Assembly: GCA_937925645.1 (NCBI GenBank)
Contig: CALAMB010000471.1
Coordinates: 1-19,453, forward strand
Origin: an uncultured Acidobacteriota bacterium
GTDB taxonomy: Bacteria; Acidobacteriota; JAAYUB01
Reading direction: 5' to 3'
Length of the DNA: 19,453 nt
How positions within the stretch are numbered: position 1 is the first letter of the stretch; each line of letters starts with the position of its first letter. The position numbers and the translations under genes were made by a program. Positions 3,663 to 19,453 of this stretch are shown here, piece after piece. The notes beneath the pieces were generated by a model. It was not told the origin of the DNA and did no database searches. It was given only the letters and a program-made list of their open reading frames with translations.

Positions 3663-4760
3663 TCAGGCCGGATGCGGCGCGGAGAAGAACCGCCGCAGCA
3701 TCCAGTACAGCACCGCCAGCCCGGCCACGAACGTCACCAGGAACATGGCGAACGGCCCCCATTGGGGCACGACGTTCAGAGCCGCCGGGTCGAACCGGCC
3801 CTCGAGGTAGACCAGCCGCAGGTAGTGGCGCGCCGCCACCATGCAGACCACGCCGAGGAACACGAGTCCCGACGCCGCCATCACCGGCACCAGCGGGCGC
3901 GCCGCGCGCCGGACCCGCCACGCCAGCACCCCCGCCACGACGTTGAGGACGATGGCGGTGACGAGCGCATGCAGCGCGGGCGATCCGAGGAACCGGCCCA
4001 GCACCTCCCGGTCGATGAGCGCCAGGTAGATCAGGCTCAGGACGGTCGCCTTGACCGCGGCCACCACGAACACCCGGCCGCCCAGCGCCAGCATGTCCGT
4101 GCGCCCTTTCAGCTTCGGATGGAAGACCGCGAACCACAGCACGATGATCCCGGCCACCGCTACGGCGCCGGTGATCGAGTGGCCCCAGCGGAAGATGGTC
4201 TCCGCCACGTGCGGATTGAGGCTGGCGCCCCCCGGCGACGCCTGGTAGAGTCCCGCCCACAGGGCCGGCTTCTCCGCCAGGTCCGAGATCATGGTGAACG
4301 TGTAGGAGATGTACACGAAACCCACCGCCGCCGCCACCAGCAGGCCGCGCCGGACGACGGCCGACAGATTCTTCTTGAGCGCCACGATGTAGAGCAGATA
4401 GTACACGGCCATCACCACCGGGATCTGAAGGAACCAGTTCCACCCCGAAACGATGGTGGCGGAGTAGAAAAACTCGCCGTACACAACCTGGGTGAACAGC
4501 AGCGGCGCCACGCCCAGAGTGATGGTGACGGCCATCGCCACCGGGAAGATTTTGATGGCGGTCTCCTCCAGGAGCCGAACGGCCGCGTGCCGGCGGGCCA
4601 GCAGCAGCACCAGCAGCAGGCCGAACAGCAGGTTCATCGCCACCAGGTGCAGAGTGAAGGTGAGCCAGTGCAGCGCGGTGAGCAGCCAGTAGGGCGCCGG
4701 CTGGACGAGGGCCGGACCGGCGGTGGCCAGTACCGGCGCGAACGATTGCAGGACGTTCAT
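3663..4760 (-). CDS. Membrane subunit related to cytochrome bd subunit I (CydA-prime type)
   Basis: This is a 365-residue polytopic membrane protein with about eight or nine hydrophobic segments. The N-terminus (LLTALHWLTFTLHLVAMNLLFG, His31 and His38) resembles the first helix of CydA, where His19 in E. coli ligates haem b595. A later helix, FRWGHSITGAVAVAGIIV (His194), resembles the E. coli CydA helix containing His186, a haem b558 ligand. It carries no CxxCH. Its start overlaps the stop of the larger subunit by four bases, so the two are coupled and surely form one complex. Known families with paired CydA-derived subunits instead of CydA plus CydB make a similar role likely: electron transfer from cytochrome c or quinol to oxygen or another acceptor. 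The role is inferred from these helices and the neighbour; a direct oxidase activity is not shown. Confidence 0.72.
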   Translation of the reverse strand: MNVLQSFAPVLATAGPALVQPAPYWLLTALHWLTFTLHLVAMNLLFGLLLVLLLARRHAAVRLLEETAIKIFPVAMAVTITLGVAPLLFTQVVYGEFFYSATIVSGWNWFLQIPVVMAVYYLLYIVALKKNLSAVVRRGLLVAAAVGFVYISYTFTMISDLAEKPALWAGLYQASPGGASLNPHVAETIFRWGHSITGAVAVAGIIVLWFAVFHPKLKGRTDMLALGGRVFVVAAVKATVLSLIYLALIDREVLGRFLGSPALHALVTAIVLNVVAGVLAWRVRRAARPLVPVMAASGLVFLGVVCMVAARHYLRLVYLEGRFDPAALNVVPQWGPFAMFLVTFVAGLAVLYWMLRRFFSAPHPA

Positions 4761-6250
4761 TTCGCACCTCCTGTCAGGTGGCGGGCCACCCGTTCCTTTT
4801 CCGCGTCGGGTCCCGTGAAGGGAGGCATGGAGTCGGACATGTCGCCGATGCCGGCGACGATGTCCGCCGCGTCCGCCGGCGTCAGGCCGGCGAAGGCGTC
4901 CGCCAGCGGACGGAAGTTGCCGGCGAGGGTGTGGCAGCCGCCGCAGCGCCGCCCGAAGGCGAGCGCGTCCTGCGCCGCGGCGCTCAGCCGGCCGCCGGCG
5001 ATGGGATCAGGCCCGGCCACGGACTTCAGGTAACGCCCCAGGGCTTCGACGTCGGCCGCGTTGCCCGGAAAGGGTGGCATTTTCTCACGGTAGAAGTGCA
5101 GCCGCGGGACGATGCCGGCGATGTACGCCTCGTCCAGCCCGGCCAGGTAATCGTGGAGCGGGTGATAGCCGTCGGCGGTGTGGCAGGAGCGGCAGCCGTG
5201 CAGGTACAGGTCGCGGCCCCGGTCTCCGGTGGAGAACGCCACGGGCAGAGGGTCGGCGGCCGGCAGCGCGGCCGCGTCGCGCGCCAGCAGATTGTTGCTG
5301 AAGAGAAATTCGTGGATGACGTACGGCTTGCGGACGGCCTCGCGGGCCCACTCGAAGCCGCCCATGGCGACCAGCGCCAGCGCCAGCATCACGCCGGCGG
5401 CGACGACGCCGGTTCGGCGGGGGATGAGCAGCAGGAGGACCAGGGCCGCCAGCGCCAGCACCCCGGCTGACACGAGCATCACCTGCACCGCCAGCGCCGG
5501 CACGCGCGCCGACACCAGCTGCTCGGCCGCTACCGGCGGCAGCGAGAGGAAATACCAGTAGCCCGACGGCACGCCCACCACCAGCGCGCCCAGCGTCAGG
5601 GCGCCGTTGAAGCGGAGCATCCGCGTCTTGAGTTCCGCGTTCTGTTCCCGGGCCGCCGTGAGCGAGGCGTACAGGCCGGCCAGGGCCAGGCAGATGCCGG
5701 TGCGGAAGACCATCCCCGGCAGGAAACCGGGGTTGAAGAACCCTTCCCAGAAGCTGCCCGAGGCCAGCCAGCCGCCGGGGGTCAGCATGAAGGTGAGGAT
5801 GCCGTTGATGATCACCAGCGACAGCCAGGCGGTGACGAAGTAGATCCAGCCGATGGCCAGGTGCAGTTTCGGCGACAGCCGCCGCCAGCCGTACAGGTAG
5901 AGCATGGCGGCGGTGATCTCCAGAAAGAACATCACCCACTCCGTGGCCCAGCCCCAGACGAAATGGTTGATCAGCCACTTGGTGCCCACCGGGTGGATCA
6001 GCCCGATGGTGACCCAGATGGCGACGCCGGTCACGGCGCCGAACACCAGGGTGAGCAGGACGAAGAACCGGGAGTATCGCTCCAGGTACGCCAGGTGGGC
6101 GTCGTCGTTCCGGCGCCGCGCCCAGATCTCGGCGAGCACCAGGTACAGTCCGCCGCCGATGGCGAAGTGGGACACGAACACGTGGACGATGGCGATCACG
6201 CCAATGAGCACGCCGTTGGCTACAAATGGCTCCCATACGGGGTAATTCAT
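4757..6250 (-). CDS. Cytochrome bd subunit I-like protein fused to two cytochrome c domains
   Basis: The protein has 497 residues. Its membrane part (about 1-312) resembles CydA: His23 in the first helix (the b595 ligand position), Glu104 and Glu111 in TEWVMFFLEITAAMLYLYGW (positions of E. coli Glu99 and Glu107), Met258 in VQVMLVSAGVLA (like the b558 ligand Met393), and EWAREAVRKPYVI, a degenerate form of the GRQPW signature. A long quinol-binding Q-loop is not evident. The C-terminus has two class I cytochrome c modules: GCRSCH (353-357) with Met391, and RCGGCH (436-440) with Met475, both in MPPF motifs. They would face the periplasm and receive or pass electrons. ATG at 6250 is preferred because GAGGTGA lies just upstream; GTG at 6256 is possible. 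It is first in a two-gene operon, divergent from the PerR-type regulator. Confidence 0.85.
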   Translation of the reverse strand: MNYPVWEPFVANGVLIGVIAIVHVFVSHFAIGGGLYLVLAEIWARRRNDDAHLAYLERYSRFFVLLTLVFGAVTGVAIWVTIGLIHPVGTKWLINHFVWGWATEWVMFFLEITAAMLYLYGWRRLSPKLHLAIGWIYFVTAWLSLVIINGILTFMLTPGGWLASGSFWEGFFNPGFLPGMVFRTGICLALAGLYASLTAAREQNAELKTRMLRFNGALTLGALVVGVPSGYWYFLSLPPVAAEQLVSARVPALAVQVMLVSAGVLALAALVLLLLIPRRTGVVAAGVMLALALVAMGGFEWAREAVRKPYVIHEFLFSNNLLARDAAALPAADPLPVAFSTGDRGRDLYLHGCRSCHTADGYHPLHDYLAGLDEAYIAGIVPRLHFYREKMPPFPGNAADVEALGRYLKSVAGPDPIAGGRLSAAAQDALAFGRRCGGCHTLAGNFRPLADAFAGLTPADAADIVAGIGDMSDSMPPFTGPDAEKERVARHLTGGAK

Positions 6251-6368
6251 GGTCACCTCGTCAAAACTCGAATAATGTATAACGTGGAAAGCAGATTAGC
6301 ACATTTTCCGGGGCAGCAGAGCCATAATTAACAAAACCGCAGTATTTATGACCGCCGGGGCGGTTCAT

Positions 6369-6431
6369 CTATTCAGTAATTATTATCTTTTAATAATTAT
6401 TATTGACATAGATTGCATCGACGGGTAGATT
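6369..6431 (+). promoter_or_regulatory. perR promoter with AT-rich Fur/PerR-like palindrome
   Basis: A perfect -35 box TTGACA (6403-6408) is followed after 17 bases by TAGATT (6426-6431, four of six -10 matches). Directly before the -35 is a perfect 12-base palindrome TAATAATTATTA (6391-6402), and a related AT-rich segment AATTATTAT lies at 6378-6386. The composition is strikingly AT-rich against a GC-rich genome and resembles the 7-1-7 AT-rich operators of Fur/PerR proteins, although it is not an exact consensus. The placement suggests autorepression, and the element lies between the divergent perR and cytochrome genes, so it could control both. Confidence 0.6.
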
Positions 6432-6437
6432 ATCGGT

Positions 6438-6896
6438 ATGCGTCAACGAGAATCAGCTGCCGTTATCCGCCAACGTTGCGAGCAGATGTTGGAAAAACTG
6501 AAGGCGCGGGGGTTCCGCATTACCCACCAGCGCCTGGCGGTGCTGGAGGTGCTCGCCGCCAGCGAAGGTCACCCGAGCGTCGAGGCGGTCTACGACCAGG
6601 TTCGCGCGCGCTATCCCACTGTCAGCCTGGCCACGATCTACAAGACCATCGGCGTCCTGAAGGAGCTTGGCGAGGTGCTGGAGCTGGGCTTCGCCGACCG
6701 GAGCAGTCATTACGACGGCCACCGGCCGTACCCGCACCCCCACCTGATCTGCACCCGGTGCGGCGCCATCACCGATCCGGACCTGAGCTGTCTGCACGAC
6801 CTGACCCGGGAAGTCACCGACGAAACCGGTTTTCGGATCCTGACTCACCGGTTGGACTTCTTCGGGGTCTGCCGGAATTGCCAGCGGCGCGGTTGA
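6438..6896 (+). CDS. perR: Fur-family peroxide-responsive regulator (PerR type)
   Basis: The 152-residue protein has the Fur winged-helix DNA-binding domain (ITHQRLAVLEVLAA and SLATIYKTIGVL) and a dimerisation domain. All five residues of the PerR regulatory metal site are present: His45 (in EGHPSVEAVY), Asp93 (SSHYD), His100 and His102 (PHPHLIC) and Asp113 (AITD). The aspartate at the last position, instead of the glutamate typical of Fur, favours a peroxide sensor using iron-catalysed histidine oxidation. The structural zinc site is Cys105/Cys108 and Cys145/Cys148. It sits directly upstream of katG, as furA does in mycobacteria. The predicted transcription start falls at about the ATG at 6438, so translation is either leaderless or begins at ATG 6486 (MLEKLKARG), which is nearer the usual family start. 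Confidence 0.9.
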   Translation: MRQRESAAVIRQRCEQMLEKLKARGFRITHQRLAVLEVLAASEGHPSVEAVYDQVRARYPTVSLATIYKTIGVLKELGEVLELGFADRSSHYDGHRPYPHPHLICTRCGAITDPDLSCLHDLTREVTDETGFRILTHRLDFFGVCRNCQRRG

Positions 6897-6975
6897 CCAA
6901 ACGGACGCGCCGGCGCGACCGGGCGGTACGTTCCGGCCGGGCTGGCGCCACGCGGGACCGAAATTCGATTTTTAA

Positions 6976-9189
<2,214 letters not shown>

Positions 9190-9243
9190 TCGCGATCGAA
9201 ATTTCCAAGAGGGCTGCTGCCAAGGTGGCGAAGCCCGTATGCC

Positions 9244-9286
9244 AAAAACAAGCGGGGCCTGGATTCCAGGCCCCGCTTGTTTTTTT
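9244..9286 (+). terminator. Bidirectional intrinsic terminator between katG and peroxiredoxin gene
   Basis: A perfect 19-base-pair inverted repeat (9244-9262 with 9266-9284) has a three-base loop ATT, a GC-rich core AGCGGGGCCTGG and flanking A and T runs. The T run at 9280-9286 terminates katG. The A run at 9244-9248 gives a U run on the other strand, so it also serves the convergent minus-strand gene. Confidence 0.92.
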
Positions 9287-9355
9287 CGTCCCGCCCGTGT
9301 CCGTCGACTTCAGGAATCCGGAACCGGACGGCCGTTTTTTCAGAATGCGGCGTTT

Positions 9356-10072
9356 CTATTCGTTGGGCTTCCAAATCTTCCAGACGTTGCCCACCAGGTC
9401 GGGACCCACCTTGAGAGTGGGTTGGCCCGGCTCCCAGCCGGCGGGGCACACCTCGGCGCCACCGGTTGCCCGGACGTGCATGAACGCGTGCACCTGCCGG
9501 ATGGCCTCGCTGATCTTGCGGCCCACCGGGGGGGTGAGGATCTCGATGGCCTGGACGATGCCGTCCGGATCGATGAGAAAGCGGCCGCGCACGTCCACGC
9601 CGCCTGCCTCGTCATAAATGCCGTAGATCGACCCGATCCGTCCCCCCGCGTCGGAGAGCATGGGGAACGGGAAACCGCCCTTCACCATTTTGCCCAGTTC
9701 GTGCTCCTGCCACATCATGTGGATGAAACGGCTGTCGGTGCTGCAGGCCAGCACCTGGATGCCCAGCTTGCGGAATTCGTCGGCTTTGGCGGCGACCGCC
9801 GCCAATTCGGTGGGTCAGACGAAGGTGAAATCGCCGGGGTAGAAGCAGAGCATCACCCACTGTCCCTTGAATTCGGACAGCTTGATGTTCTTGAAGTTTC
9901 CCTCGTGGAATGCGGATGCCTCGAAATCGGGGGCCGGCTTGCCCACCATCACGCTCACGGTCGCCTCCTTTCGCGGCGCTTCGCCGGCTACCTGGCCCGC
10001 CTCGGGCCCGGGCTTCGGGGCAATGGGCCCCGCCGCCGGCTGCACGCAGCCTTGTGGTTTTTTGTCCGCCAT
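9356..10072 (-). CDS. Selenocysteine-containing 2-Cys peroxiredoxin (AhpC/PrxU type), TGA read through as Sec86
   Basis: Two open stretches in the same frame are separated only by one TGA at 9815-9817. Read through, they give a 238-residue AhpC-type peroxiredoxin in which TGA falls exactly on the peroxidatic cysteine: GDFTFV-U-PTELAAV instead of FTFVCPTEL. The domain is complete: [13 protein letters not shown] (43-55), FYPGDFTFV (77-85), Sec86, [19 protein letters not shown], and the resolving cysteine in [11 protein letters not shown]. It would reduce hydrogen peroxide and organic hydroperoxides through a selenenyl-sulfide. A hairpin with a GGUC loop follows the UGA at E. coli fdhF-like spacing. 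The start at 10072 has GAGGAGG five bases upstream; a proline- and alanine-rich extension of about 40 residues precedes the domain. Sec-peroxiredoxins (PrxU, e.g. Eubacterium acidaminophilum) are an established family. The gene converges with katG and shares its terminator. Confidence 0.93.
9786..9805 (-). promoter_or_regulatory. Bacterial SECIS-like hairpin for Sec insertion
   Basis: In the mRNA the 20 bases read UUGGCGGC-GGUC-GCCGCCAA: an eight-base-pair perfect stem with a GGUC tetraloop. The loop starts 18 bases after the UGA, with 17 bases between. In E. coli fdhF the SelB-binding loop also carries GGUC at almost the same distance. The bulged U of the fdhF upper stem is absent, and bacterial SECIS elements vary in that detail. 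The hairpin lies within the coding region, as expected for bacteria. Confidence 0.78.
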
Positions 10073-10135
10073 GTCGCCTCCTCTGAAGTGAGGTTGTGCA
10101 CATATCATGCGCGTCGGGTTTTCGACGGTAGTTTC

Positions 10136-10189
10136 ATTATAAGGGAGAAACACCTGCCGTCCAACCCTGACTTCGTCTGGTTGTCAGGG
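10136..10189 (-). promoter_or_regulatory. Promoter of the peroxiredoxin gene with upstream inverted repeat
   Basis: On the minus strand TTGGAC (10159-10164) is followed after 17 bases by a perfect TATAAT (10136-10141), giving a leader of about 57 bases. Directly upstream of the -35 is an inverted repeat CCCTGAC-N11-GTCAGGG (10165-10171 and 10183-10189), a possible regulator site. TTATAAT over the -10 is also a perfect PerR half-site, though the other half does not match well. Confidence 0.62.
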
Positions 10190-10320
10190 ATTTGAGCCCA
10201 TCTCGCGTTGAGGCCGTCAATCCGCGCGTTGGTTCGGCTGCGCAGCAGCCGCGGAGTGTAGCCCATGATTGGGGGGTTTCGGGTCCACCGGATGGGTCAG
10301 GCACACAGGCAACCGGCGCC

Positions 10321-10340
10321 GGCTCGACTGCGCTCTGGAT
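10321..10340. repeat. Dispersed intergenic repeat, copy 1
   Basis: The 20 bases GGCTCGACTGCGCTCTGGAT occur again, identically, at 16710-16729. Here the copy sits just past the end of the VOC lipoprotein gene; the surrounding bases 10200-10346 hold no gene. Both copies are followed by GC-rich sequence related to GCGCGC, suggesting a family of intergenic repeat elements. Confidence 0.6.
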
Positions 10341-10346
10341 AGCGCG

Positions 10347-10817
10347 CTATTCAGAGCGTTCCGCGCGGCGCGGCAGCTGCCACAGGCCGTGCTCCACCCC
10401 GCCCTGGATGTAAATGGCGAAGGTGCCGTGGCCCGGAATTTCCAGCGGCGGATGGGCGATGACGGCGCCGGCCGCCGCCGCGGCGGCCACCGCCGCCTCG
10501 ATGTCGGCCACGAGCCAGTAGGGCCGGACGATCGGCTCCTCGGACTCGCGCAGGGGCGCCCGCACGCCGACCAGTCCGCCCCCCGGCAGCACCGCCGTCC
10601 GCGCGTGGCCGAGCCCGGGGTCGGGTTCGCCGAACCGCAATCCGTTCGCCGCGGCGTACGCGGCGCACACCGAGTCGACATCCCGGGTGACGATTTCCAG
10701 GTAATGAATCGGCCTGACCGGGTCTCCTCGGTGGACGTTTGGATTTGGAGCCGTCCGGGCGGTCGCGCACCCCAGGACGGACACGGCGACGATGGTAACG
10801 GCGAACATCCAACGCAT
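10347..10817 (-). CDS. VOC (glyoxalase/dioxygenase-fold) domain lipoprotein
   Basis: This 156-residue protein starts with a lipoprotein signal: MRWMFAVTIVAVSVLGC, with lipobox VLGC and Cys17 as the likely lipidated residue. A single VOC-fold unit follows: IHYLEIVTRDVDSVCAAYAA, then [32 protein letters not shown] and a final strand with GGVEHGLWQL. The histidine in HYLEI and the glutamate/histidine near the end are in positions used for metal binding in this superfamily. Enzymes of this fold act on glyoxal adducts, catechols or antibiotics, so substrate prediction is not possible. ATG at 10817 has GAGGAGG about six bases upstream; the frame is open further upstream, but no good start lies there. 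An envelope-anchored VOC protein is somewhat unusual. Confidence 0.78.
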   Translation of the reverse strand: MRWMFAVTIVAVSVLGCATARTAPNPNVHRGDPVRPIHYLEIVTRDVDSVCAAYAAANGLRFGEPDPGLGHARTAVLPGGGLVGVRAPLRESEEPIVRPYWLVADIEAAVAAAAAAGAVIAHPPLEIPGHGTFAIYIQGGVEHGLWQLPRRAERSE

Positions 10818-18652: not shown

Positions 18653-19236
18653 GGTCCCTCTCTCCTTGAACCATCTCGGCCTGCTTCGTCACAACACCTG
18701 AAGTCCGCGCGAGCGCGGCCTGCGCGCCGACAGCATGGCCTGGCAAACCGTGTGGCCGGTCGTGCGTTTGGCCATGAGCCAACAATCCACCTGCTGGACG
18801 ACTCCACCTGGCCAACAATTCTTGCCGTCCCCGGTCCAGACCGATGAAGATGAAAAACCGTCACGATTCTGAGTTCGCTTTCATGATTTACTGTCTTTAT
18901 TCTTCCTTGTCAATCCTTGTTGCATCATGCCAGGTCTTGACGCGGGGGCGGCGAGGGTTGGACCGGCGGCGCGAGGGGCCAGCCGCCGCGATGTCCCGGC
19001 GCCGCGACACCATTCCATCACGGTGGCGGCAGTGCGTGTCACGCGACCTTTTGAGCCGTTGCAGAACCCGCGACGATGGTTTGCCCTTTGATCCCGGACG
19101 GGCATTCAAGCGGCACAGACAGAGTGGTTGGGCGCCGGGGGTACAGCGTGCCGATAGGGCTTTCGCGCCGCTCGCTGCCGCTCGCGGTACCTCCACGTTG
19201 CCAACCGGTGGATCGTGCCACGAGCAGGGGAACGTT
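18653..19236. other. Gene-free GC-rich gap
   Basis: I see no convincing gene in these 584 bases. A possible minus-strand promoter, TTGACA (18908-18913) with TAAATC (18885-18890) at 17 bases, lies upstream of the zinc-ribbon gene. The open plus-strand frames here lack ribosome sites and family motifs. The stretch 19080-19230 abuts the tandem repeats. Confidence 0.5.
18885..18913 (-). promoter_or_regulatory. Candidate promoter upstream of zinc-ribbon protein
   Basis: A perfect TTGACA on the minus strand (18908-18913) and TAAATC (18885-18890, three of six matches) are 17 bases apart. The surrounding 40 bases are AT-rich against the local background. It is far (about 230 bases) from the start at 18652, so the assignment is weak. 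Confidence 0.3.
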
Positions 19237-19292
19237 GAATCGGTGAATCGGTGAATCGGTGAATCGGTGAATCGGTGAATCGGTGAATCGGT
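19237..19292. repeat. Tandem repeat, 8-base unit, seven perfect copies
   Basis: The unit GAATCGGT is repeated seven times without a mismatch and then breaks into GAACAGG. The unit is not a multiple of three, and no coding gene covers it. Confidence 0.97.
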
Positions 19293-19341
19293 GAACAGGA
19301 AGGACAGGACCTGGGTGCTGGGAACTGGGATCCAAAATCTA

Positions 19342-19380
19342 GGACCCAGAACCCAGGACCCAGAACCCAGGTCCCAGGTC
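19342..19380. repeat. Tandem repeat, 14-base unit
   Basis: Two perfect copies of GGACCCAGAACCCA (19342-19355 and 19356-19369) are followed by a degenerate partial copy GGTCCCAGGTCC. The preceding CTGGGTGCTGGGAACTGGGA (19313-19330 region) is an inverted relative, so a hairpin is possible. Confidence 0.85.
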
Positions 19381-19381
19381 C

Positions 19382-19430
19382 GATTACGGTCACGATTACG
19401 ATTACGGTCACGATTACGATTACGAGTCAC
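19382..19430. repeat. Tandem repeat, 6/18-base composite unit
   Basis: A higher-order repeat is built from GATTAC and GGTCAC/GAGTCAC. It runs as GATTACGGTCAC (19382-19393), GATTACGATTACGGTCAC (19394-19411) and GATTACGATTACGAGTCAC (19412-19430). It is the third distinct low-complexity block within 200 bases and continues toward the window edge. Confidence 0.85.
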
Positions 19431-19453
19431 GAGCACGAGACGAAGCTTCCAAC

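Follow-up and report, generated by a model that had tools for sequence, protein, structure and literature searches.

The window (the whole stretch of 19,453 nucleotides that was analysed) carries on its minus strand a peroxiredoxin gene, here assigned to prxU. Read from 10072 down to 9356, the TAG included, it encodes a predicted protein of 238 amino acids (M...FTFVUPTEL...VCPAGW...KPNE, with TGA read as U), as delimited by the reading frame and by the match to the PrxU model; no peroxiredoxin was found when 9356..10072 was read on the plus strand. GAGGAGG lies 4 nt upstream of the ATG, and a sigma-70-like promoter match (10136..10163, minus strand), which is a consensus match only (10 of 12), is located further upstream. 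The TGA at 9817-9815 is the only in-frame stop in the 238 codons before the terminal TAG (9358-9356). By translation and by comparison with relatives, it specifies residue 86, the sole U of the predicted protein, in the context PGDFTFVUPTEL and at the peroxidatic position of a PxxxTxxU motif. A sequence-only reading of this DNA had already placed a single in-frame TGA at the catalytic position; this is confirmed, and the strand, absent from that reading, is minus.

A perR/fur-like gene followed by katG occupies 6438-9189 (+), convergent with prxU. katG, identified by NCBIfam, adjoins prxU, and the PerR/Fur-like regulator scores 119.7 bits, below the PerR cut-off of 180. Between the convergent katG and prxU lies an inverted repeat (9244..9286) with an A-run on one side and a T-run on the other, a probable bidirectional terminator. 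Because prxU stands beside katG and a PerR/Fur-type regulator, the arrangement suggests a peroxide-defence locus. Among 80 related loci, many of them short, katG is found near prxU in at least two (L001 and L002, the closest relatives) and a perR-like gene in at least seven (the same two and five others). Elsewhere in the window, 4757-6256 (-) encodes a 499-aa protein that, by Pfam, resembles cytochrome bd subunit I at its N-terminus and also has a cbb3-type cytochrome c domain; it may be an unusual bd-type oxidase to which a cytochrome c is attached. The adjoining 365-aa ORF (3663-4760) has no Pfam or NCBIfam match. Near the end of the window (19236-19432), an 8-bp tandem repeat (TGAATCGG, 7.5 copies, 100% matches) is followed by 6- to 18-bp repeats.

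The predicted protein scores 372.7 bits against NCBIfam NF040737 (peroxi_PrxU, thioredoxin-dependent peroxiredoxin; cut-off 270), its residues 7-237 aligning to positions 2-232 of the 233 of the model, while the AhpC model TIGR03137 gives 177.3 bits, under its cut-off of 272, so that the protein does not belong to AhpC as defined by that model. Its Pfam matches are AhpC-TSA, Redoxin and 1-cysPrx_C. Both the in-frame UGA at the peroxidatic position (TxxU) that defines PrxU and the C-terminal resolving cysteine in a VCP motif (Cys209) that defines typical 2-Cys peroxiredoxins are present.

A listing of ORFs under the standard code contains a separate 5' ORF and a TTG-started 149-aa 3' ORF. The latter is found as such in the protein database (P0010, 100% identity), hence gene calling did split prxU, as the sequence-only reading had expected. 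Its further claim that the gene would be missed by automatic calling is right for this split 3' piece, but does not extend to the annotated prxU of Peptoclostridium acidaminophilum, which spans the TGA. The case is an example of how protein collections come to contain such genes in split or mistranslated form. The 149-aa ORF would fit a reading in which UGA ends translation and each part is made on its own, or in which a low level of readthrough inserts a standard amino acid; yet this ORF begins a few codons past the UGA, and its product would be without the catalytic residue.

A scan of genome contigs yielded 298 relatives; TGA occupies the aligned codon 86 in all of the best 80, to which the comparison was limited. 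The closest among them, L001 (93% protein identity) and L002 (91%), both derive from Acidobacteriota metagenome-assembled genomes (MAGs). At the DNA level the window shares 90.1% identity with L001 over 6483-10347 and 88.1% with L002 over 4594-10265, and since these identities are so high the window probably comes from a related Acidobacteriota organism, apparently an environmental one. A well-supported selenoprotein gene is thereby added to this apparent Acidobacteriota lineage.

The codon is similarly persistent in wider samples, in which PrxU matches were counted by genome collection. In the phylum of G001 (the genome of L001) 24 of 24 matches from 297 genomes have an in-frame TGA; in that of G003 (392 genomes) the single match, G003 itself, has it; and two further phylum samples gave 15 of 16 (400 genomes) and 137 of 147 (395 genomes, counted by hand from the rows), some rows of the 297-, 400- and 395-genome samples counting a second stop (TAA, TAG or TGA) with no position assigned. 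The 147 matches are spread over 131 genomes, of which 16 have two each; the 10 TGA-less rows include one fragment that does not contain the site, and the position of the TGA was confirmed for the fetched loci only. At class level, three of six genomes in the sample of G001 have a PrxU match over the cut-off, all three with TGA. In four genomes, G1381 (L193), G1227 (L198), G1347 (L200) and G789 (L162), a stop-free PrxU match stands beside another match with TGA. These Cys copies are without the SECIS loop pattern described below, and L193 retains Cys9, Cys76 and Thr209.

If the TGA were a sequencing mistake or had arisen recently by nonsense mutation, the gene would be a pseudogene of a Cys-type AhpC in which the TGA stands by chance. 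What speaks for this is that the evidence on the window organism comes from its relatives and not from its own genome or reads. The recurrence of the same TGA in all of the best 80 relatives leads us to exclude it, at a probability that we put close to nil: the TGA is present in the separately assembled MAGs of L001 and L002, which is decisive, no further stop interrupts the 238 codons, and the codon is followed by a hairpin with synonymous covariation.

Folding and comparison with relatives place a bacterial SECIS-like hairpin at 9786..9805 (minus strand), with an 8-bp stem (9805-9798 with 9793-9786), an apical loop GGUC (9797-9794) that begins 17 nt after the UGA, and a minimum free energy (MFE) of -15.3 kcal/mol. 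The bSECIS model, as given in a passage of PMC13188914, has a stem of 4-16 bp, a loop of 3-9 nt with a G in the first two positions, a spacing of 16-37 nt and an MFE of -7.5 or lower; the window hairpin (8-bp stem, 4-nt loop GGUC, 17-nt spacing) falls within the four constraints stated in that passage. By itself it is unexceptional when compared to shuffled sequences (z of -1.90, -0.81 and -0.19 for three cuts), and an Rfam search of the window reported no SECIS. Across 81 genes, mean folding z in 42-nt windows lies between -1.82 and -1.87 at three offsets from the TGA (-9, 0 and +9); at none of the remaining 55 is it stronger than -0.87. In the stem register 85.6% of cells are paired, as opposed to at most 64.7% in registers slid by -6 to +9, and in 76 distinct stretches stem pairing reaches 85.2% versus 74.5% (sd 0.7, maximum 77.1 in 500) with dealt-out partners. 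The outermost of the eight pairs (13-32) is mostly not kept, being mostly A-A or G-A in relatives.

The loop was compared in 165 loci, comprising 152 with TGA and 13 with Cys (L081-L116, L202 and L203, fetched for Sec-machinery genes, were omitted); some genes are counted twice among them, since a genome could be reached by two routes. The 135 distinct TGA copies have the loop codons GCA-GUU (77), GCG-GUC (57) or GCU-GUG (1), i.e. third bases A-U, G-C and U-G in the same numbers. Since the protein invariantly has Ala-Val at this point, the covariation concerns two synonymous third bases. It would be expected if positions N1 and N2 in the bSECIS loop pattern described in PMC13188914 form a pair. 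The other Ala and Val codons of the same stretches are mixed. None of the 13 Cys-coding copies (10 PrxU matches over the cut-off and three weaker AhpC-like matches) has a GCA-GUU or GCG-GUC loop, but none of them encodes Ala-Val there either, so that the control is not purely synonymous; mean folding z is -1.89 in the TGA copies versus -0.08 in the 13 Cys copies. No p-value is attached to the covariation because related sequences are not independent. The covariation of two synonymous third bases in the TGA copies, with the pattern absent from the Cys copies examined, constitutes a SECIS signature. Its occurrence in TGA copies and not in the 13 Cys copies also goes against UGA acting as a stop or being read through with a standard amino acid, which we accordingly hold to be extremely improbable. 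The replacement of the peroxidatic Cys by Sec in an AhpC-type protein, as claimed from the sequence alone, is instead supported by the TGA in all of the best 80 relatives, the covariation in the SECIS and the match to the PrxU model.

From the genomes of relatives we infer that the window organism has the selenocysteine machinery. The closest genome, G001, carries a tRNA-Sec with anticodon TCA (ARAGORN), selB (363 bits), selA (480 bits) and selD (371 bits). The selD of G001 (L203, 656-1576) has an in-frame TGA of its own, in a CAGU motif, and looks like a selenoprotein gene itself. selA, selB and selD are over their cut-offs in all six PrxU genomes tested, while tRNA-Sec was confirmed by ARAGORN in four of them (G001, G003, G004 and G006); in G002, the second closest, and G005, both with selA, selB and selD, the best fetched RF01852 loci, the only ones examined, are ordinary tRNAs. 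Confirmation by ARAGORN was required since RF01852 is unspecific at weak scores, the control having matched 14 of 14 genomes, five of them over the cut-off. The names in the search results agree with the accessions used, TIGR00474-6 and RF01852. selA is present in eight of nine further PrxU genomes and, in the 297-genome sample (read by eye), in 21 of 24 PrxU genomes versus 170 of 273 others (Fisher p 0.014, not corrected for kinship). The search for selA, selB, selD and tRNA-Sec that the sequence-only reading had recommended was thus fully positive in the closest genome, which serves as a stand-in for that of the window and favours Sec over decay, and incomplete for tRNA-Sec across the six.

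The database entries for homologues (P0003-P0122) print Trp at the Sec site in 85 of 115 full-length PrxU sequences, with single cases of R, G and S. The W entries, and the one with G, would agree with a changed code in which TGA means Trp or Gly and the residue is not Sec. Yet the neighbouring katG and perR-like genes are full-length under table 11, the closest genome contains tRNA-Sec along with selA, selB and selD, and Trp is not known to serve as a peroxidatic residue. The Trp and Gly entries themselves probably stem from gene calling under codes in which TGA means Trp (or Gly), by which selenoproteins would be mistranslated systematically. We give a changed code next to no credence. That the gene is prxU, encoding a 2-Cys-type peroxiredoxin with a predicted selenocysteine as peroxidatic residue, we regard as nearly certain.

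The N-terminal extension (approximately residues 1-44, 9941..10072, minus strand) carries a conserved C9xxP12 motif according to the alignments, the Cys9 codon lying at 10048-10046. Such a long extension, taken for uncommon in the sequence-only reading, is a trait of PrxU: Cys9 occurs in 78 of 81 aligned sequences, that of the window included, Cys9 and Pro12 are invariant in the 78 that bear Cys9, and an N-terminal Cys in a CxxP motif was found in all 141 loci where the alignment reaches that far. The resolving cysteine noted earlier is indeed present as Cys209 (9446..9448, minus strand), identified by translation and alignments at the canonical position (VCPAGW), but is a minority trait in PrxU, being found in 17 of the 152 TGA loci and absent from 135, usually with Thr (118) in its place. 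Cys76 (9845..9847, minus strand) is kept in every one of the 152 TGA loci. A tie between Cys76 and Sec, suggested by the occurrence of Cys76 in 4 of 13 Cys-coding loci, was rejected because Cys76 is also present in 24 of the 27 database homologues that show C at residue 86; some of these could be Sec records in which C was printed. Because Cys209 is mostly absent while Cys76 and the N-terminal CxxP cysteine are kept, it is possible, if rather doubtful, that the PrxU family resolves its selenenic acid non-canonically, with the flexible N-terminal arm or Cys76 providing the thiol, and that the clade of the window carries both systems. How PrxU is reduced where the canonical resolving Cys is lacking is a testable question raised by the comparison. 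A literature search on the resolving cysteine of Sec peroxiredoxins and on SECIS found no title on bacterial PrxU, as judged by titles.

We propose that SelB with Sec-tRNA(UCA) would bind the hairpin just past the UGA and Sec would be inserted at residue 86, a step strongly supported by the comparisons above. By analogy with known peroxiredoxin chemistry, the selenolate of Sec86 would then reduce a peroxide to water or alcohol and become a selenenic acid. The latter would be resolved by Cys209 of the partner subunit, giving a selenylsulfide that thioredoxin or another thiol reductant would then reduce.

Typical 2-Cys peroxiredoxins of the AhpC kind share with the window protein the AhpC-TSA family, a FTFVCPTE-type site and the EVCPAGW resolving segment, but have a Cys codon where the window has TGA. 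The best PDB match by sequence is Peroxiredoxin-2 (5ijt), which has Phe at the position of Cys76 and whose alignment begins at residue 40 of the window protein, leaving the N-terminal extension unmatched. The PrxU of Peptoclostridium (Eubacterium) acidaminophilum was reportedly described by Sohling et al. in 2001, a paper that PMC9312934 and PMC8533274 cite. No other entry among 72,556 plasmid records matches as well as its gene, which is 61.5% identical over residues 34-238 and resembles that of the window in having TGA at the same site, the N-terminal GCARP motif, a Cys at the Cys76 position and, counted as a likeness, the loop sequence AGUU. It differs in having Ala (EVAPSGW) at the resolving position, where the window has Cys209, and FVUATE instead of FVUPTE at the active site. 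The second-best plasmid match, which is of Chloroflexota origin, likewise carries TGA at the Sec site. No difference that would exclude the window protein from the NF040737 PrxU family was found. Sec-containing peroxiredoxins with a TxxU motif appear as a selenoprotein family in passages of two reviews (PMC13188914, PMC9312934); excerpts of earlier surveys give 43 peroxiredoxin selenoprotein genes, the second most abundant family, in 2005 (PMC1088965) and 12 genes in the table of 2006 (PMC1794560). The gene in the window is a further, ordinary member of the already known PrxU selenoprotein family.
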